Assembly (NCBI GenBank): GCA_015489365.1
Contig: WFZW01000127.1
Span: forward strand, 1 to 33,385
Direction: 5' to 3'
Source: Deltaproteobacteria bacterium
GTDB taxonomy: Bacteria; Desulfobacterota; Dissulfuribacteria; Dissulfuribacterales; QOAL01
Length of the DNA stretch: 33,385 bases
Both the position numbers and the translations under genes were made by a program. Every line of letters starts with the position of its first letter. Position 1 is the stretch's first letter. Below are positions 18,585 to 30,349 of the stretch, in pieces. Below the pieces are notes generated by a model, which saw nothing but the letters and a program-made list of their open reading frames with translations, was not told the DNA's origin and searched no databases.

Positions 18585-21500
18585 ATGGATACCAATATCT
18601 TCAAGTCTACAAAGGGCCTGGTTGGCTCAGTGCTGGTGGTTGGCGGGGGTGTTGCAGGCGTTCAGACCTCCCTTGACCTCACAGGGCTCGGATACAAGGT
18701 CTATCTTGTGGAAAAGAGCGCTGCCATAGGCGGTGCCATGGCGAGGTTGGACAAGACCTTCCCCACCAATGACTGTTCCCTGTGTATCCTTGCCCCCAAA
18801 CTGGTGGAGGCAGGAAGGGACCCCAACATCGAGATCCTTACCAACGCGGAACTGGTCTCCCTGGAAGGAGAGGCGGGGGCCTTCAAGGCGGATATCAGGT
18901 GCAGACCCCGTTTCATAGACGAGGAGGCGTGCACGGGTTGCGGCCAGTGCAGCCTGTATTGCCCAAGGGTGATTGCCGACGACTACAACGCGCGACTGGA
19001 TATCAGCCGGGCAGCCCACATCGATTATCCCCAGGCCGTGCCCACTAGCTATTACATAGACGCCAAGGCATGCCTACGTGTCAATTACGATACCTGCGGC
19101 CTGTGCGCCTCTCTCTGCCAGGCCAGGGCAATCCGCTTTGACCAGGAGGAAGAAATCAGGCGTCTTGATGTCGGGGCCGTGATACTTGCGCCCGGTTTTG
19201 GCCGGATCAACGAGGAGGTCTTCAGGAGGTATGGATGGGGCAGGTATGAAGACGTCCTGACTGCGTTTGAATTTGAGCGGCTCATGTGCGCGAGCGGCCC
19301 AACCAGCGGCTCAATCGTGAAGATCTCGGACAGGAGCCATCCGCGGCGCATTGCCTTTCTCCAGTGCATTGGCTCAAGGGATGTCACCTGCGGCAATAAC
19401 TACTGCTCATCGGTCTGCTGCATGTATGCCATCAAACAGGCCACCATGGCCAGAGAGCACCTCCCGGAGGCGGAAATCACCCTCTTTTACATGGATATCC
19501 GTACCCACGGCAAGGGCTTTGACGCCGCAAGGGAGCGCGCAATCAGGGAAAACGGGTTCCGGATCATCTACGCACGTCCACCCAGGGTGGAAGGGATCGA
19601 TGGGATGCTCTTTCTTACCTATGTCACCCCAGAGGGAAACCATGTCAGCGAGGCCTTCGACATGGTTATCCTCTCCCAGGGACTTGAGGCCCCTGAAGGC
19701 GCTGAAGGACTAGCAAGGGCGGCCGGGATCGACCTGAATCCCTACGATTTTGCCGCCACCGGCATCTACGCCCCCCTTTCCACCTCCAGGGCCGGCATCT
19801 ATGTGATCGGGGCCTTCCAGGGGCCGAAGGACATCCCGGACAGCGTGACCCAGGCAGGGGGGGGCCGCGGCCCTCTGCTCCGGTCTCCTCCGGGGTGCCC
19901 GCGGCAGCCGGATAGTCACGGCTGAATATCCGCAAGAGAGGGATATAGCCGGAGAAGAGGCGCGGATCGGCGTCTTTGTCTGCCACTGTGGCACAAACAT
20001 CGGCGGGGTCGTGGATGTGCCATCGGTGCGGCAGTACGCGGCCAGGCTTCCAGGGGTGGTATACGCGGCGGACAATCTCTACACCTGTTCCCAGGACACC
20101 CAGAGACATATCGCGGAGATGATAGACAGGCACAGACTGAACAGGGTGGTCGTGGCGGCCTGCACCCCCAGGACCCACGAACCCCTTTTCCAGGCCACGC
20201 TCCGGGCAGCCGGACTCAACCGTTCACTCTTTGAGATGGCCAATATCCGGGACCAGTGCTCCTGGGTCCACATGAACGAACCGGAAGCGGCCACGGAAAA
20301 GGCCAAGGATCTCGTGCGCATGGCAGTGACAAAGGCCGCCTACCTGGTCCCTCTGGCCGAGCAGTCGCTGCCGGTTACCGGATCGGCCCTTGTGATAGGC
20401 GGCGGGGTGGCGGGCATTACCGCGGCCCTGACAGTAGCGGACCAGGGTTATGAGTGCGTGCTGGTGGAACGGGGAAAGGATCTGGGGGGACAGGCGCTGA
20501 AGCTCACTGCCGACCGGAACGGGCAGGATCCCAGGGAAAAGGTTGCGGCCCTTATCAGGCAGGTGGAAGGGCATCCCCGCATCAGGGTCCTTAAGCGCGC
20601 TGAAGTTTCGTTGATCTCAGGCTACGTGGGCAACTTCACCTCTACTGTCGCCACTGATTCAGGAAACCAGTCAGTCAAGCACGGCGTAACGGTGCTGGCC
20701 ACCGGTGGGCATCCATATTGCCCTGGCGGGCGGTACCTGTACGGCAAGTCCCCCAGGGTAATGACCCAGTTGGAGCTTGAGGCAAGACTTGCCTCTGATG
20801 ACCCCCTTCCACCGGATGCCGGGCAGGTCGTGATGATCCAGTGCGTTGGCTCCAGGGGAGAGGATCTCGCCTATTGCAGCAGGGTCTGCTGCGGACAGGC
20901 GCTCAAAAACGCCATCAGGCTCAAAAGGGCCAGGCCGGACCTCGGAGTGGTCATCCTTTACCGGGACATGCGGGCCTATGGCTTTCTGGAAGACGACTAC
21001 CAGGAGGCCAGGCGCATGGGCGTCATATTCCTGCGCTACAGCCCCGAGAGACCTCCCCGGGTCCTGGAGGAAGAGGACAGGGGCGGCACGCTCACGGTAA
21101 GGGCCTGGGACCCTCTCATCGGAGAAGATGTTGAGTTCAGGACAGACATGCTGGTGCTCTCAGTGGGCGTGGTGCCGGAGGACCAAAGGGACCTTGCCGG
21201 CATGCTGAAGGTGCCGGTTACGGAAGACGGATTCCTTCTTGAGGCCCATGTAAAGCTCCGCCCGGTGGACCTGCCCGTGGACGGCGTATACGTCTGCGGG
21301 CTTGCCCATTCTCCCAGGTCTATTGACGAATCCATTGCCCAGGCACAGGCCGCGGCAGCCAGGGCCTGCCGGTCCCTGGCGCGGGGGAGCATCGTGCCAG
21401 AGCCCATTGTCTCCAGCGTGGACGAGGAAAAGTGCGTAGGATGCGGGGCCTGTGAACGGTTTTGCCCGTACAAGGCCATCCGGCTCCACAAGGAGGGGAA

Positions 21501-21663
21501 AAAATGCAAGGCAAGGACCATAACCGCCTCCTGCAAGGGGTGCGGGATCTGCGCATCCCGCTGTCCCACAATGGCCATAGACATGGGCCGCTTTACCTGT
21601 GAAGGGATCATGGCCCAGATTCACGCCTTTAGCGAAAGGGAGGAAACCAATGGCAACCAATAA
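18585..21663 (+). CDS. hdrA: Double-module HdrA-like FAD/4Fe-4S protein, interrupted by an apparent +1 frameshift at a G8 tract (about 19857-19864)
   Basis: ORF 18585..19925 (VVGGGVAGVQTSLDLTGLGYKVYLVEKSAAIGGAMARLDKTFPTNDCSLCILAPKLVE...GAFQGPKDIPDSVTQAG) continues after removal of one G as GAAALCSGLLRG...IGVFVCHCGTNIGGVVDVPSV...SALVIGGGVAGITAALTVADQGYECVLVERG...CVGCGACERFCPYKAI...CKGCGICASRCPTMAIDM (ORF 20011..21663 frame). Confidence 0.85.
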
Positions 21664-22267
21664 GTATGAACCCAGGATCCTGGGATTTCTGTGCAACTGG
21701 TGCTGCTACACCGCGGCCGATTCCGCGGGAGTTGGCAGGTATCAATATCCCCCGAACCTGCGGGTCATCCGCATCATGTGCACCGGCAGGCTTGATCCCT
21801 CTTTTCCGCTGGAGGCGCTGGCTACCGGCGCGGACGGCGTCTTCGTGGGCGGTTGTCACCCTGGCGAATGCCACTATCAGGATGGAAACTACCACGCGCT
21901 GGTGAGCGCCGCCCTGGTCCATGAAGGCATGGAGATGCTGGGGGTGCGTAAGGAACGTTTTCTCATTGACTGGGCCTCAGCCGCGGAAGGCCCCCATTTT
22001 GTCAAGATAATCACAGACTTCACCCGGCAGGTCACAGAGCTTGGCCCCCTGGGTAAGGCAGAGGGCCGGGATGCCAAGCGACTGCGCAGGCGTCTTTCCA
22101 TGGCGGCCGCGGCGGCCAGGGGCAGGAAGGTGCGCACAGGGCTTATAAACGCTGCCAGGGAGATGATGAAGGGCCGGGATTTCAGCAGGGAGGGCATCGC
22201 CGGCCTTGTCCGGGATAAATGCGGCCGCTCCCTTGAGACCGCGTTGGGAGACAGGGCAGGACGATGA
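21650..22267 (+). CDS. mvhD: MvhD/FlpD-type hydrogenase delta subunit (2Fe-2S, Hdr-associated)
   Basis: PRILGFLCNWCCYTAADSAGVGRYQYPPNLRVIRIMCTGRLDPSFPLEALATGADGVFVGGCHPGECHYQDGNYHA. ATG at 21650 with upstream GGAGG. Confidence 0.92.
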   Translation: MATNKYEPRILGFLCNWCCYTAADSAGVGRYQYPPNLRVIRIMCTGRLDPSFPLEALATGADGVFVGGCHPGECHYQDGNYHALVSAALVHEGMEMLGVRKERFLIDWASAAEGPHFVKIITDFTRQVTELGPLGKAEGRDAKRLRRRLSMAAAAARGRKVRTGLINAAREMMKGRDFSREGIAGLVRDKCGRSLETALGDRAGR

Positions 22268-25200
22268 AAGACGCAGGCAGGAAGGTCACCATCTCCATTG
22301 ACGGAAAGCGGATAACCGCCGCGCGGGGGACCACGGTGATGGAAGCGGCGGACAGGGCCGGTATCCACATACCGCGCCTGTGCCATCTGCCCGGAAAGGG
22401 GGAACCTGCCAGGCCATGCCGCCTCTGCACAGTGGATGTGGACGGGAGAAAGGTCAGGGCGTGCGTCACCGAGGTCTGTGAAGGCATGGCCGTGGTTACG
22501 GACAGTCCAGGCATCTTTTCCTACAGGAAGAGTCGTCTTGAAGAACTTGCCTCCATACACTACGGCGACTGCAAGGCCCCGTGCAGCCTCGCCTGTCCCG
22601 GGGGAATAAACGTCCAGGGCTATGTCAATCTCATCGCAAAGCGGGAATTCGGGGCGGCGCTCAGGCTCATCAAGGAGAAAAATCCCCTCCCTGTATCAGT
22701 TGGAAGGGTCTGCCCTGGTTTTTGTGAGACCAGGTGCAGACGAATCCTCCTGGATGAGCCCCTGGCTATCAATCACCTGAAGAGGTTCGTGGCGGATTAT
22801 GCCAGGGAATTTGGTTTCAAAGACGAGGAGATCGGCGAGCCTACCGGCAAAAAGATAGCCGTAATCGGCGGGGGGCCGGCAGGCCTTTCCTGCGCATATT
22901 TCTTGAGGAAACAAGGGCATGGTGTCACCATCTTTGAGGCAGAGGACAGGCTGGGCGGACTTTTACGCTACGGCATACCAGGATATAGACTTCCGAACAA
23001 GGAGGTGGATGGAGAGGTACAGACTGTCCTGAACCTGGGGATCCAGGCAAGGCTGAACAGCCGCTGGGGTAAAGATTTCAGCCTCCAGGATCTAAGGGAC
23101 AAGGGCTTTGAGGCCATATTCATTGCAACCGGCCTTTCCGGTCAGAAACAATTAGAGATAGAGGGCGCCGGGTGCGCCATCTGTGCTCTTGCCTTTTTGA
23201 AGGAGGTCAACCAGGGTGGCAGGCCTTCTATCGGTGCCGAGGTCCTGGTCGTTGGCGGCGGTGATATTGCCGTTGACGCGGCCAGGAGCGCAAGGCGCCT
23301 TGGCGCAAAGCAGGTAACGGTGGTCTATCCAAGGTCCAGGGTTGAGCTTCCCGCCCATCAAAGGGATATCGAAGAGGCTGAAAGGGAAGGGGTCCAGTTT
23401 TTCCTCATGGCCACTCCAATGAAGATTATGGGAGAGGGTGGGAGGCTCAAGGTGGAGTTGGCGCGGACCGTATTGGATGAACCTGACCAAAGAGGCATCC
23501 GTCACCCTGTCCCCATGCCGGGTTCACGTCTCTACTGGACGGGGGACACAATCATTTCGGCCCTTGGCCAGGAGGGAGATCCCGGTTTTCAAGCCTACGG
23601 GGAACTTGAGGCCTCCATCCAGCTTACCCCCAAAAAGACCATAAAGGTCCATCCGGGCACCATGAAGACCAGCGTGGAAGGCATCTATGCCGGGGGGGGA
23701 CCTGGCCACCGGCCCAAGGACGGTAATCCAGGCAGTGGCCGGCGGCCGGCGCGCTGCGGAGGCCATCCATGCATATCTCATGCAGGAAAAGGTCGGGACT
23801 TTCGAGCCCCGTTTTAATTTTACCAGGGGAAAACGTTTTGAAGACGTGGATATGCACAACTTTGATGGCTGCAATATCCAGTTGAATGAGACCATGCCCT
23901 CAAGACCGCCTGAGCACAGGCTTGGGGACTTTGACGAGGCGGAGCTTGGTTTTTCAGAGGAGATGGCGGTCAGGGAGGCCCGCCGCTGCCTCCAGTGCGG
24001 CTGCCTTGGGCTTTCAAAGTGCACCCTTAGAGAACTTTGCATTGGTTACAAGGTCAAGGCAAAAAAGGCCGGGAAGAGGCTCAAATACAGGGTTGATAGC
24101 CGCCATCCATTTATAGTGGTGGATGCCAACAAGTGTGTTGGCTGCTCAAGGTGCGAGAGGAGTTGTGCATACGGGGCATTGGAATTGCGCATCAGGACAG
24201 ATCAAGGCACACAAATTATAACCAGTCTCTCTATAGGGTTTAATGAGAAATGTGTCTCCTGCGGGGCCTGCGTGGATGCCTGCCCCACCGGGGCGCTCAC
24301 CAAGAAGGGCCTCTATGTCCCGCTCCTTCCGGGAGCAGCAGAGGTGACCCAGAGCGTCTGTACCTATTGCGGGACCGGGTGCAACATAAATATCCACGCC
24401 AGGCACGACGTGATCCTTGAGGTAAAGGCAGACCCGCTCCAGCCCCCCAACCACGGCGACCTCTGCGTAAAGGGCAGGTTCGGTTTTGATTTTTACCGCC
24501 ACCCGGACCGGCTCACCCATCCCCTGGTGCGGATGAGCCGGGATGAGCCCTTCCGGAGGGCCTCCTGGGATGAGGCCATCTCCCTTGCTGCCGGCGGGTT
24601 TGCGAGGATCAGGGATGGCTACGGCCCGGAGGCCCTCGGGGTCGTCACCTCGTCACGGTGTGAGAACGAGGTCAACTACCTGGCCCAGAAGCTCTGCCGG
24701 GTGGTCTTTAGGAGCAACAACGTGGACAACTGCGCCAGGGTCTGCCACGCCCCGTCGGTCAGCGGGCTGAGGATCGCGCTTGGAAGCGGCGCGGCCACCA
24801 ATCCCCTGGAGGACATCGAGAGGGCGGAGGTGCTGTTTGTCTGCGGATCAAATACCAGCGAGGCCCATCCCGTGGTGGGCGTGAAGGTGCGGCGGGCCGT
24901 CAAGGAGGGGGCAAGGCTTATAGTCATTGATCCAAGGAAGACCGAAGTGGCTGCCATGGCCCATGTCTGGCTTCGGTTGAGACCGGGGACCAACGTGCTG
25001 CTTCTCAACTCCATACTCCAGGTGATCCTCGAGGAGGGACTTGAAAACAGGGAGTTTATCAAGGCAAGGACAGAGGGATTTGAAGGTCTTTGCCGCCACC
25101 TGGAGGCCTTTTCCCCAGAGGCCACCCAGGTCGCCACCGGGGTCGCGCCTGCGCTGGTAAGAGAGGCGGCACGCCTTTATGCGGGCACGGACAGGGGGCT

Positions 25201-26383
25201 GATCCTCTACGGCCTCGGGGTGACGGAACACAGAAACGGGACCAGGGGGGTCATGGCCCTTGCAAACCTGGCACTTGCCACGGGAAACGTGGGCAGGCCA
25301 GGCGCCGGCATCTGTCCCCTCAGGGGACAAAACAATGTCCAGGGCTCCTGCGACATGGGGGCCCTTCCCTCTGTATTTTCCGGATACCAGGACGTCAACG
25401 ATCCGGCGGTCCGGAAGAGGATGGAAGAGGCCTGGGGAGTGGAACTCCCTGCCTCTCCCGGCCTCACCGAGGAAGAGATGTATGGCCAGGCCAGAAGGGG
25501 CCGGTTCAAGGGCCTTTATTGCATAGGCGATGACCCCCTCCACACCCAGGCCGATCTGGCAGCGGTCCGCGAGGCATTTAAAAAGATGGACATGGTGGTC
25601 GTCCAGGACATATTCATGACCGAGACGGCCAGGATGGCCCATGTGGTCCTCCCCGCGGCATGTTTCTACGAAAAGGACGGGACTTTTACCAACGCCGAAC
25701 GGAGAATACGGCGTATCAGAAAGGCGGTTTCGCCCCCGGGCGAGGCCCTGCCGGACTGGGAGATCACCTGCCGCCTGGCCACTGCCATGGGCTACGCCAT
25801 GTCCTACCATGGACCGGCGGAGATCATGGAGGAGATCGCCGGGTGCACCCCGTCCATGGGAGGCGTCAACTACAGGCGGCTTGAGGGTCAGGGCCTCATA
25901 TGGCCCTGTCCGTATGAAGGCCATCCGGGCACGCCGCTGCTCCACCGGGATGCCTTTACCAGGGGAAGGGGCCGGTTCTCGGCGCTCAGCGATGTAAGGA
26001 CCCTGGAAACGCCTGACGAAGACTATCCCCTGGTGCTGATAACCGGGCGCAGACTGGCCCATTACAACAACGGCTCCATGACCAGGCGCTGTCAGGGCCT
26101 GTTGACGCTTGTCCCTGAAGAGACAGTGGAGATCCACCCACGGGATGCCTCACGCCTGGGCATTGAGCAGGGCCAGATGGCCCTTGTCCGTTCCCGCCGG
26201 GGGGAAGTGGAGGTCAGGGCCAGGGTGACGGAACGGAGCCGGCCCGGCACGGTCTTCATGGGCTTTCACTTTGACCGGCCCCTTACCAACCTGCTTACCA
26301 GTCCTGGCCTGGACGAGATCGCCCTCACGCCTGAATACAAGGCGTGCGCAGTGGCGGTCCTGCCCGCGAACAAGGGCGGATGA
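22264..26383 (+). CDS. fdhA: Multidomain formate dehydrogenase alpha fusion: 2Fe-2S ferredoxin + GltD/NuoF-like FAD oxidoreductase + 4Fe-4S + molybdopterin catalytic domain; interrupted by an apparent +1 frameshift at a G8 tract (23692-23699)
   Basis: N-part ITAARGTTVMEAADRAGIHIPRLCHLPG, KIAVIGGGPAGLSCAYFLRKQGHGVTIFEA...VEGIYAGG, continuing after removal of one G as DLATGPRTVIQAVAGGRRAAEAI...VGCSRCERSCAYGAL...SVCTYCGTGCNINIHARHDVILEVKADPLQPPNHGDLCVKGRFGFDF...NVDNCARVCHAPSVSGL...RGQNNVQGSCDMGALPSVFSGYQ...TGRRLAHYNNGSMTRR. Confidence 0.88.
24743..24774 (+). promoter_or_regulatory. Candidate SECIS-like hairpin downstream of UGC (24743-24745) at the FDH Sec/Cys site
   Basis: UGC at the codon homologous to the E. 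coli FdhF Sec (ARVU-HGPSVAGL vs ARVC-HAPSVSGL). UCAG-CGGG-CUGA hairpin with a G in the apical loop, extendable by GUC/GAU; the apical loop starts 17 nt after the UGC. Confidence 0.35.
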
Positions 26384-26400
26384 GGCCTGAAATCAACAGT

Positions 26401-26490
26401 GGGGGCGATGGTACTGGTGTGCCCCGCGGGCTGCAAACCCGTTGGCCCTGTCTAGTAAACAGGGAGGAGGTTCGATTCCCCTCGCCCCCT
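26401..26490 (+). tRNA. tRNA-Sec-like tRNA with GCA (Cys) anticodon, U73, modified 8/4 acceptor/T-stem with bulged A, long variable arm; CCA not encoded
   Basis: Acceptor GGGGGCGA/TCGCCCCC (8 bp); D arm GGTAC-TGGT-GTGCC; anticodon arm GCGGG-CTGCAAA-CCCGT (anticodon 26433-26435 = GCA); variable arm CCCTGT-CTAGTAA-ACAGGG; T arm GG(A)GG-TTCGATT-CCCC; discriminator T at 26490. Confidence 0.9.
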
Positions 26491-26513
26491 TTAGTTTTTG
26501 ATGGCAAGCCGCG

Positions 26514-28448
26514 ATGGCCGATACATTAATCATAGGCACGGCAGGCCATGTGGATCATGGCAAGACCTCTCTCATAAAGGCCCTTACAGGTATTGACCTT
26601 GACAGGGACCCGGAGGAAAAGAGGCGGGGGCTTACAATAAACGCGGGCTATGCCAGCCTTGAAATGGATTCAGGCCTGGTATTTTTCGTGGATGTCCCGG
26701 GTCACCAGGCCTATCTGAGAAACACCATTCGTGGGCTCTGGGGGGTAGAGACGGCCATACTGGTGATCGCCGCGGATGAAGGAGTCATGCCCCAGACCAG
26801 GGAACACCTGGCGGTACTGGAAATTCTTGGCGTTTCAAAGGGGATAGTCGTGCTTACAAGGGTCGATCTGGCGGATGAAGAGGTCCTTTGCATGGCGGAA
26901 GACGAGGCAAGGGACCTTGTCAGGGGCACCTTCCTGGAGGCGGCCCCGGTTATCCGTTTCTCTGCCAGGACCGGGCTTGGGAAGGCCGAAGTAAAAACGG
27001 CTATCAAGGGGTTGTTGTCCAGTGCCCTGCACAGGAACGTGGACAGACCGTTCATGATGCCTGTAGACCAGGTGTTCACCGTGGACGGATACGGGACAGT
27101 GGTGACCGGCTCGGTGGCCTCGGGCAGGATCCATACCGGTTCGATGGTTGAGATATGTCCAGGGAAAAGGCAGGACCAGGTACGCCTGCTCCAGGCGGGC
27201 GGCAAGCCGGTCGAGGCGGTGAGGGCAGGGATGCGGGCCGGGATCAATCTCAGGCTGACCGGCCATGGCCAAATCGCAAGGGGTATGGTGCTCGGAGGAC
27301 CTGGATGCCTGCGTGAGGGGAGATTTGTAAATCTGGAACTCCACCTGCTGGACCACCTCAGAGAGCCTTTAAAAAATCATGCCGTGGTGCGTGTCTTCTG
27401 CGGTTCCTCCCATGCCATGGCCCGGCTTGTCTTGATGGAAGGCGAGGTCCTCCTGCCAGGCCGCAAGGCCCTTTGCCAACTGAGATTCAAAGGAGATATC
27501 GCTGCCCTCCCCCTTTTCCCCCTGGTGATTTCCAGCCTCTCTCCTGTAAGGATCCTGGGCGGCGGGCCGATCCTTGAGATCTCAAGGCGCAAGTGGCGGA
27601 AAAAATACAGAGAAAAAGCAGGTTACCTGAAACTGCTTTCTTCCGGGCGCCTTGGTGACATAGTGGTGGCGATCCTCAAAAACAGCCCTGGCAGGCCGGT
27701 TGATCCCGCTGAGATAGCCATAACTTCCGGTCATTCCCTGGTGGATATGGAGAGAGAAATCAGGGCACTTCTGAACAAAAGAGAACTCTTGTATGTTGGT
27801 CAAAGGGTTTATCTTTACCGATATTTCAAAGAGATAACAGACAATGCCATAAGGGCTGTCTCCACGTATAACTGCCAGAGGCACGAATTCCCTGGTATGC
27901 CCATTGAGGAGATACGGAGCAAGTTCCCCGTTTCTGATGAGGGCTTAAAGGATGCGCTTATAGAGGCCCTCAAGGCAGATGAAGGCCTGGAGACCGCAAG
28001 GGGCGACCGCCTCTGCATGGCCGGTTTCAAGCCCTTTTTGCCCAATAGGCTCGAAGGGATTTCCCGGAAGGTCATTTCTTTTCTGGAGAGCCGTGAGCCA
28101 AGGCCGGTTACCTTTTCAGACCTTAAGGGACTGGACTCTGTTACCGAGGCTGACCTGCGAAGGGTAGTCTCTTTCCTCTTTCATAATGGAAAGATTGTCA
28201 GGATATTCAAGTCCCATAGAGGCAACAGGGAGGAGTATATTACAACCGGGTACCTGGAGAAAATAAAGGAGAGGATCAGCCGGCATATAATGCTTCACGG
28301 CAGGCTCACCTTTGAAGACACGGCCACGGTTATTCCCATCGGCAGGCTCAGATTCAATATCCTCGACTACCTTGATTCCATAAGATTTACCATTAGATCC
28401 CCAGATATGTCGCGAACCTTGGATACTGGGCACAAGCACAGGAAATAG
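26514..28448 (+). CDS. selB: Selenocysteine-specific elongation factor SelB (divergent)
   Basis: IIGTAGHVDHGKTSLIKALTGIDLDRDPEEKRRGLTINAGYASL, VDVPGHQAYLRNTIRG, ADEGVMPQTREHLAVLEILGV, LTRVDL; C-terminal winged-helix region. Starts 23 nt after the tRNA. Confidence 0.93.
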   Translation: MADTLIIGTAGHVDHGKTSLIKALTGIDLDRDPEEKRRGLTINAGYASLEMDSGLVFFVDVPGHQAYLRNTIRGLWGVETAILVIAADEGVMPQTREHLAVLEILGVSKGIVVLTRVDLADEEVLCMAEDEARDLVRGTFLEAAPVIRFSARTGLGKAEVKTAIKGLLSSALHRNVDRPFMMPVDQVFTVDGYGTVVTGSVASGRIHTGSMVEICPGKRQDQVRLLQAGGKPVEAVRAGMRAGINLRLTGHGQIARGMVLGGPGCLREGRFVNLELHLLDHLREPLKNHAVVRVFCGSSHAMARLVLMEGEVLLPGRKALCQLRFKGDIAALPLFPLVISSLSPVRILGGGPILEISRRKWRKKYREKAGYLKLLSSGRLGDIVVAILKNSPGRPVDPAEIAITSGHSLVDMEREIRALLNKRELLYVGQRVYLYRYFKEITDNAIRAVSTYNCQRHEFPGMPIEEIRSKFPVSDEGLKDALIEALKADEGLETARGDRLCMAGFKPFLPNRLEGISRKVISFLESREPRPVTFSDLKGLDSVTEADLRRVVSFLFHNGKIVRIFKSHRGNREEYITTGYLEKIKERISRHIMLHGRLTFEDTATVIPIGRLRFNILDYLDSIRFTIRSPDMSRTLDTGHKHRK

Positions 28449-28462
28449 CCATGCGAAATGTT

Positions 28463-28479
28463 GTTAAGCGGCGCTTAAC
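28463..28479. promoter_or_regulatory. 17-bp palindrome between convergent genes
   Basis: GTTAAGCG-G-CGCTTAAC perfect dyad; function unknown. Confidence 0.4.
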
Positions 28480-28600
28480 GCTACATAGCCCTCGATGGAC
28501 ACCATGTATTGGTTTCGGTCGGATGAAAGGAATCCAAGAATAGAAAAAAATGTGCCAAGCCGTTAGATGCGTCACCGTCAGAGGGGGAATCTTTGCGGTT

Positions 28601-30349
28601 TCAACAACTATTTTTTAAGGACAGAATTTCTTCTGTGAGGTCCTCAACCTTTCTCCCGGCGGTAACCTCATAAACAGGTGCCTCTTTCAGGCCCCAACGC
28701 CGGTGAACCTCCTCTATGCTCTCCTCACGTACCAGCCAGACCATAGGTATGTTGACGGTTTGTACGAGGATGTCCAGTGACTTCGCCCACCCCTGGCCCT
28801 GGAGTTCCCATGGTCCGACCTCGTCAACCACCACCAGGTCGGCCCTTTGGATCCGTTCCGGAGAGAGTGCCCGGCGTCCCACGGCCAATCCTTGTTTGCT
28901 AAAACAAAACGGGCCAAAACCGGGAAGGTCCCCCTCTTTACCCCGGCGGCAGAGGAGCCGGCGCTCCCCGGTAAGGAGGTCCACGATGTCGAATCCACTC
29001 CGTATCCTTCCTTCCCAGAGACCGACTGCCAGGATGCCGCCGACCTCCAGGCCGGCAGCCTTCAAGGCCTTAACCGCCTGGGCAAGGAAGGTGGTCTTAC
29101 CGGCCCCTCTTTTCCCGGTGACGATGAGAGTGGGCGGCCTCCGGGATGTTCGGGGCTGGATGCCGGTTGAGTAGGAGTCCACCTGGCGAATGATCCTGGC
29201 CACGGTCTTTACCGGCTGGGAAAAGAGTCCCCTCCGGGCCGCAGCCAGCCTGTCCACCATGAACGGCAGGATATCAAAGGCCACTGGCAGGGCCAGGTAG
29301 AGCTGACGGAAACCGTGATTTTCCATCCAGAGGCGCAAACCAGGGTTTCGGAGCTCAACCCCGAGGGCGGCAAAACCCGCCACCATGAGCACGGCCCGAA
29401 TGTTCATCTCGAGGCCGGCCCGTGCCCCCTGCCAGCTCCAACCGGTACTGGCACTGGCGTTATTGATATGCCCGAGGAGCATCCCGGCCAGGATGGTGAG
29501 CGCGGCCAGCACGGCCCAGAAGCCGGGCCTCTTCAGATATCTCATGCCTTGACGGTAGCGCAGGGATACCAGGAGGACGTAAAGGGCGACAAGGGCGGCG
29601 GAAATCATCAGCGGCAGTCGCCCCAGGAACCAAAGACCCCCGGAGATAATGATTAGATGGAGGATCAACAGGCCCTTGTGAAAGGCCTGCCCGGGATCTA
29701 CCTTTCTTCCTTCAAACCGCCGGCCGGCCGGCAGAGAGGTGGCGAGGGGACCGGCAGGAAGGTTAAGGGCCCGGTCCCCGATGTACCAACCCAAAAGGGC
29801 CGCGCCGATACCGCCCAGGAGATAGAGCGCCGCCAGTCCTGACACCAGGCGCCAGAATCCATGCTGACTTGGATCAAGCCCCAACTGATGGGCTGCAAGC
29901 TGGTACAGACGCAGGTAGAGGTTCACGAGATTCGGGCCGTAGACTACAAGCAGCCTTCCCACCTTGTGCAGGAGGCTCCAGGAGACGGCCAGTGCCCCGC
30001 CCAGCAGGTATCCCGGGATATTGGGACAGAGGAGTTTTACCCCCGCCTCCAGGCACAGGGCCTCTATCACGATGGCCACCATGGGCCCCAAAATGACCGC
30101 GGAGGGCGAGATGGACTTCATGGCCGCGCAGATAAGGCCGGCCCTAAGGAAGAGCCCTTTCCGCGGCCGGAGCCGGTGGGAGGCAACCAGCAGGCAGACT
30201 GCCCAGGCGCTCAGTATCAATCCGGCCAGCGGGACGTGGAGATTGTGGAGGAAGCTGCCAAGTACGATTTCCATCGAGGCCCAGAGGCTGCCGATACCCG
30301 CGGCCCTGAACCACAAGGGGGACAGCCTCCCCGCCTCATCCCTTTTCAC
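28601..30349 (-). CDS. Fusion of ECF-transporter-like membrane regions (S- and T-like) with a C-terminal THEP1-like NTPase
   Basis: N-terminal hydrophobic S-component-like region (LRAGLICAAMKSISPSAVILGPMVAIVIEALCLEAGV), T-component-like region (MLLGHINNASASTGWSWQGARAGLEMNIRAVLMVAGFAALGVELRNP), then TLIVTGKRGAGKTTFLAQAVKALKAAGLEVGGILAVGLWEGRIRSGFDIVDLLTGERRLL...ADLVVVDEVGPWELQGQGWAKSLD (THEP1/DUF265-type NTPase). Confidence 0.75.
   Translation of the reverse strand: MKRDEAGRLSPLWFRAAGIGSLWASMEIVLGSFLHNLHVPLAGLILSAWAVCLLVASHRLRPRKGLFLRAGLICAAMKSISPSAVILGPMVAIVIEALCLEAGVKLLCPNIPGYLLGGALAVSWSLLHKVGRLLVVYGPNLVNLYLRLYQLAAHQLGLDPSQHGFWRLVSGLAALYLLGGIGAALLGWYIGDRALNLPAGPLATSLPAGRRFEGRKVDPGQAFHKGLLILHLIIISGGLWFLGRLPLMISAALVALYVLLVSLRYRQGMRYLKRPGFWAVLAALTILAGMLLGHINNASASTGWSWQGARAGLEMNIRAVLMVAGFAALGVELRNPGLRLWMENHGFRQLYLALPVAFDILPFMVDRLAAARRGLFSQPVKTVARIIRQVDSYSTGIQPRTSRRPPTLIVTGKRGAGKTTFLAQAVKALKAAGLEVGGILAVGLWEGRIRSGFDIVDLLTGERRLLCRRGKEGDLPGFGPFCFSKQGLAVGRRALSPERIQRADLVVVDEVGPWELQGQGWAKSLDILVQTVNIPMVWLVREESIEEVHRRWGLKEAPVYEVTAGRKVEDLTEEILSLKNSC

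Follow-up and report, generated by a model that had tools for sequence, protein, structure and literature searches.

The 33,385-nucleotide stretch of DNA analysed here (the window) carries on its forward strand an apparent HdrA-MvhD-FdhA operon, a tRNA gene and a gene for a second SelB-type elongation factor. The features are listed below, with the evidence for each in brackets.

18585..21663, + strand: hdrA (undivided in genome G029 and in the Sec copy; in the window a G8 tract splits the ORF)
18783-18785, + strand: former Sec site of hdrA, TGT (aligned with the Sec paralogue)
21650..22267, + strand: mvhD, FlpD family (PF02662; aligned with the Sec paralogue on contig C237)
21854-21856, + strand: former Sec site of mvhD, TGT
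22264..26383, + strand: fdhA, whose N-terminal part is an NAD(P)-binding oxidoreductase (relatives have a single ORF; in the window a G8 tract splits it)
24743-24745, + strand: former Sec site of fdhA, TGC
26401..26490, + strand: selC*-type tRNA-Cys(GCA) (ARAGORN, Rfam, homologue covariation)
26401-26408/26482-26489, + strand: its acceptor stem
26410-26423, + strand: its D arm
26426-26442, + strand: its anticodon arm, with GCA at 26433-26435
26446-26464, + strand: its variable arm
26466-26481, + strand: its T arm, with a bulged A at 26468
26490, + strand: its U73
26514..28448, + strand: selB*, second SelB-type elongation factor, 644 aa (TIGR00475, fold, clade)

The tRNA gene lies 17 nt past the fdhA stop and 23 nt ahead of the selB* start at 26514. 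No promoter-like site and no + strand terminator-like site were found in 26250-28700, and selC* and selB* are probably co-transcribed with the HdrA-MvhD-FdhA genes. Two G8 tracts (19857-19864 and 23692-23699) split hdrA and fdhA; seven G would restore the frame, and the tracts may represent assembly error, phase variation or decay. In another genome (G420, L207:2001-8033), inserted ORFs, possibly belonging to a mobile element, break up the hdrA that precedes mvhD-selC*-selB*.

ARAGORN called a tRNA-Cys(GCA) at 26401-26490, and the sole Rfam match in the window was tRNA-Sec at the same positions, scoring 59.5 bits where the gathering score is 47. The cloverleaf has an 8-bp acceptor stem, a 5-bp D-stem with a 4-nt loop, a 5-bp anticodon stem, a 6-bp variable arm and a 4-bp T-stem, GG-A-GG/CCCC, with a single bulged A; CCA is not encoded in this copy. 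An earlier note, made from the letters of the window, had proposed this structure and position and a check with a tRNA-Sec model, and its description is borne out by ARAGORN, by the Rfam match and by covariation over ten homologues. The 8-bp acceptor stem, 4-nt D loop and long variable arm are those of canonical bacterial tRNA-Sec, from which the window tRNA differs in having GCA rather than UCA, U73 rather than G73, a 4-bp bulged T-stem, and a D-stem of 5 bp where 6 bp are described for bacteria.

Sec and Cys machinery in the genome

At the three Cys positions, a paralogous HdrA-MvhD-FdhA cluster on the genome's contig C237 carries in-frame TGA, in the contexts NDCSL(U/C) in HdrA, GG(U/C)H in MvhD and RV(U/C)HAPS in FdhA, all three of which are listed among known selenoprotein families (PMC13188914). 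Just past the TGA, the Sec copies can fold into hairpins whose loops contain GUC(U), whereas the Cys copies cannot; SECIS hairpins are absent from the Cys copies at the three former Sec sites, the only sites examined, and unlike in canonical SECIS-dependent insertion no hairpin stands just after the codon.

The window's assembly (2.49 Mb, 99% complete) contains a canonical tRNA-Sec(UCA) on contig C103, a canonical SelB on C227 and SelA on C76, indicating that the selC*/selB* pair is additional to the Sec system; an ordinary tRNA-Cys lies on C143. The earlier note had raised the question of a canonical selC(UCA), selA and a normal tRNA-Cys, and all are present. The genome also has two CysRS genes, both outside the window, one of which is fused to CysK (cysteine synthase) and split over the ends of contigs C186 and C116 (L056, L057).

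The tRNA and SelB of the window are the published 'selC* tRNA-Cys / selB*' pair (Mukai et al. 2017, as summarised in PMC7609411 and PMC9437257). The tRNA type is thus not new, and the Soll-group work that the earlier note correctly named already covers it. The window shares with the published pairs the GCA anticodon, U73, an 8/4 branch whose T-stem has a bulged A, a long variable arm, a selB* immediately downstream, and the presence of a canonical selC and selB elsewhere in the genome. CysRS* is reported to charge selC*, and its position next to selB* has been described for Desulfobacterales only (PMC7609411). The window differs in having no CysRS* beside selB*. CysRS* is an optional feature, which we found beside some selC* members with UCA.

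Conservation of selC* and its SelB* partner

Among ten homologues, 98.6% of the cells are paired under the 8/4 cloverleaf, both-sided changes occur in 20 cells (shuffle mean 7; 0 of 500 shuffles reach 20), and the cloverleaf is broken when the 3' partners are slid. Covariation extends to the two innermost pairs of the acceptor (columns 7:83 and 8:82), which supports the 8-bp acceptor stem as genuine. A pseudogene reading of the tRNA was rejected on the covariation in these ten homologues. Across 31 homologues, 245 of 248 acceptor cells are paired and the bulged A is invariant (31/31); the anticodon is GCA in 20 and UCA in 11, and U73 occurs in 29 members, including all 20 with GCA. The comparison with homologues proposed in the earlier note therefore found U73 (in GCA members) and the bulged A kept, with the 8-bp stem maintained by compensatory changes, and the joint conservation of U73 and GCA supports the Cys identity it had suggested. 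In two UCA members (L255 and L256, from G353 and G276) A73 replaces U73, and the amino acid of these two is less certain.

A covariance model of the family gave its members 96-114 bits, compared with 43 for the tRNA-Sec and 31 for the ordinary tRNA-Cys of the window's own genome. Searching 396 genomes of the phylum yielded 39 strong matches in 38 genomes (82.8-114.6 bits; the next match scored 68.7). The distribution is patchy, with selB* beside selC* in 5 of the 49 genomes of the order.

The window SelB* matches TIGR00475 at 289 bits, above the cut-off of that model, and has the SelB fold: modelled with a mean pLDDT of 85.6, it can be superposed on E. coli SelB (5lzb) over nearly the whole length. 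Although the Pfam wing models fall below threshold on this protein, the C-terminal winged helices are predicted to persist, because the modelled structure follows E. coli SelB nearly end to end. We take the Sec pocket to comprise Asp180, Arg181 and Arg236 (E. coli numbering, partly by alignment) and an aromatic residue of domain 1. The pocket and the SECIS-domain motif in the last winged helix are altered relative to canonical SelB. Gln stands for Arg181 in the window SelB*, while the Asp, the second Arg and the Tyr of the Sec pocket (PMC5059743) are kept; the pocket Arg is replaced by Gln, Gly or His in 13 of 23 SelB* proteins. In all 23 the last winged helix is without the Lys of the RK(Y/F) motif, which is present in 11 of 11 canonical SelB proteins compared. 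Judging from these substitutions, binding may be affected.

The SelB* neighbours of selC* form one clade, separate from canonical SelB, in which UCA members are nested among GCA members, corresponding to one or two anticodon changes on the tree. A SelB* gene adjoins nearly every selC* that we examined with enough flank, including those of distant families. A same-genus genome (G249) has the same operon ending in selC*, followed only by a 31-nt selB*-like stretch (L206:1-1800). At the acceptor end of the G249 tRNA, A1.C72 is a mismatch and G2.U71 a wobble; next to these, further into the acceptor, is a compensated C:G to U:A change. This acceptor-end decay fits a dependence of the tRNA on SelB*. 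The dedicated pairing of tRNA and adjacent SelB put forward in the earlier note is thus supported by near-universal adjacency, by the single SelB* clade and by tRNA decay where selB* is a relic. An unrelated gene follows the selB* relic in G249.

Gene neighbourhoods and candidate Cys codons

Comparison of 30 selB* loci with 80 canonical selB loci placed MvhD near 14 versus 2, HdrA near 8 versus 0 and HGD-D near 8 versus 0, with FdhA-like genes likewise enriched; the loci are related and phylogenetically non-independent, some marker queries were drawn from the selB* loci, and the 80 controls were chosen by similarity to SelB*, a SelB* contig scan having given only loci without the tRNA. In six genomes mvhD lies between selC* and selB*, and one genome family (L260, L262, L265) encodes an unassigned protein of about 200 aa between mvhD and selB*. 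In seven genomes (L151, L152, L155, L156, L267, L269, L275), selC*/selB* is accompanied by a gene resembling the D component of 2-hydroxyacyl-CoA dehydratase together with one for a BadF-type ATPase; there are no Sec forms of HGD-D in the order. Selenium-metabolism genes of the SelD, YedF and YedE types were observed near some selB* loci (L155, L154, L267, L269).

Linkage to HdrA-MvhD-FdhA and HGD-D/ASKHA genes is unmentioned in the reviews PMC7609411 and PMC9437257. We found no earlier description of this context, namely a Cys operon that mirrors a Sec operon and the enrichment of MvhD, HdrA and HGD-D.

No conserved RNA element was found after the candidate Cys codons of hdrA, mvhD, fdhA and HGD-D. 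Between the G000 and G029 operons, synonymous-site conservation was 0.19-0.20 at the sites in fdhA and mvhD, below the 0.35-0.39 averaged over these genes, and 0.56 against 0.42 after the hdrA site, a difference not distinguishable from noise. Codon use at the Sec site of mvhD showed no preference. In hdrA, codons 73-100 form a borderline stretch of high synonymous conservation, which was discounted since its Cys is matched by a Cys in the Sec paralogue.

Possible roles of the pair

We lean modestly towards the view that selC* is charged with Cys, carried by SelB* and read at UGC/UGU, the pair serving HdrA-MvhD-FdhA. CysRS would charge the tRNA with cysteine by way of the identity elements U73 and GCA, and the 8-bp acceptor branch probably makes it bind EF-Tu poorly and the neighbouring SelB* instead; SelB* would bring Cys-tRNA to the ribosome to read Cys codons. 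As far as sequence can indicate, charging with Cys and delivery by SelB* are likely. The pair would then probably serve the selenium-independent redox enzymes, whose former Sec sites are now UGU or UGC. Several points count against this reading: no SECIS-like or other conserved signal follows the candidate codons; the same codons are readable by ordinary tRNA-Cys(GCA), so that the gain from a second channel is not obvious; the enrichment compares related loci; Cys-type FdhA occurs in other genomes with no adjacent selC*; hdrA and fdhA carry frameshifts at the G8 tracts in the assembly; and the Cys operon persists in G249 with no selB* next to it, in a search whose cut-off (E 1e-105) leaves room for a diverged selB* elsewhere in that genome. 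More tentatively, we can postulate two Cys-decoding channels for the same codons, EF-Tu with tRNA-Cys and SelB* with selC*, the latter serving MvhD, HdrA, FdhA and HGD-D by means of an mRNA signal distinct from the classical SECIS.

The main rival is a backup for selenium scarcity, in which SelB* would bring Cys-tRNA(selC*) to the UGA of SECIS-bearing Sec mRNAs, UCA members reading it as cognate and GCA members as near-cognate. Cys insertion at UGA has been reported for the UCA type, with use under selenium scarcity posited (PMC9437257); UCA members, 11 of the 31, are interspersed with GCA members in the SelB* tree, and a SECIS-bearing Sec operon is present in the same genome. We nevertheless regard this as unlikely for the GCA-type pair, which adjoins the Cys operon rather than the Sec operon, has an anticodon that mismatches UGA at the wobble position and yet is kept in 20 of 31 members, and encodes a SelB* lacking the Lys of the canonical RK motif.

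Less probable again is an extra tRNA-Cys isoacceptor working with EF-Tu, SelB* having another role. The anticodon and U73 would suit ordinary Cys decoding, and E. coli accepts 12-bp acceptor branches of the 8/4 type in translation (PMC7609411), but the tight linkage of selC* to SelB* and the decay of the tRNA beside the selB* relic argue against it. A gene in the course of being lost, for a relic or a non-translational RNA, would account for the patchy distribution and for the loss of the pair in the sister genome G249; it is very improbable in view of the compensatory substitutions, the intact selB* ORF, and an anticodon and bulge, with U73 in the GCA members, that are invariant across distant families. 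Least probable of all is the insertion of Sec by SelB* at UGC/UGU of the Cys operon after charging with Ser and then Sec by SerRS/SelA, an option of the earlier note that recalls the tRNA-Sec species with sense anticodons (Mukai 2016, cited in PMC7609411), likewise tRNA-Sec-like with a Cys-codon anticodon, and that would suit the long variable arm, the tRNA-Sec-like D arm and Cys codons exactly at Sec sites, but found no support: unlike those Sec-carrying tRNAs, the window tRNA has U73 and GCA that point to Cys, all GCA members have U73 instead of the G73 of tRNA-Ser and tRNA-Sec, many SelB* proteins have altered Sec-pocket residues (Gln for Arg181 in the window), and the Cys paralogues have lost their SECIS hairpins.

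For the paired Sec and Cys operons, Methanococcus maripaludis offers a parallel: according to PMC11097638, it has paired Sec and Cys isoenzymes of energy metabolism in one genome, as does the organism of the window, and uses the Cys set during selenium depletion. Unlike that set as described there, the Cys set of the window carries its own tRNA-Cys and elongation factor. The SelB* proteins show SelB departing in evolution from both the Sec pocket and the canonical winged-helix motif, an example useful for genetic-code engineering. The paired Sec and Cys operons, the Cys one with its own Cys-tRNA and elongation factor, provide concrete candidate targets for the GCA-type selC*/SelB* pair, and make selenium limitation a condition in which the function of this pair becomes testable.
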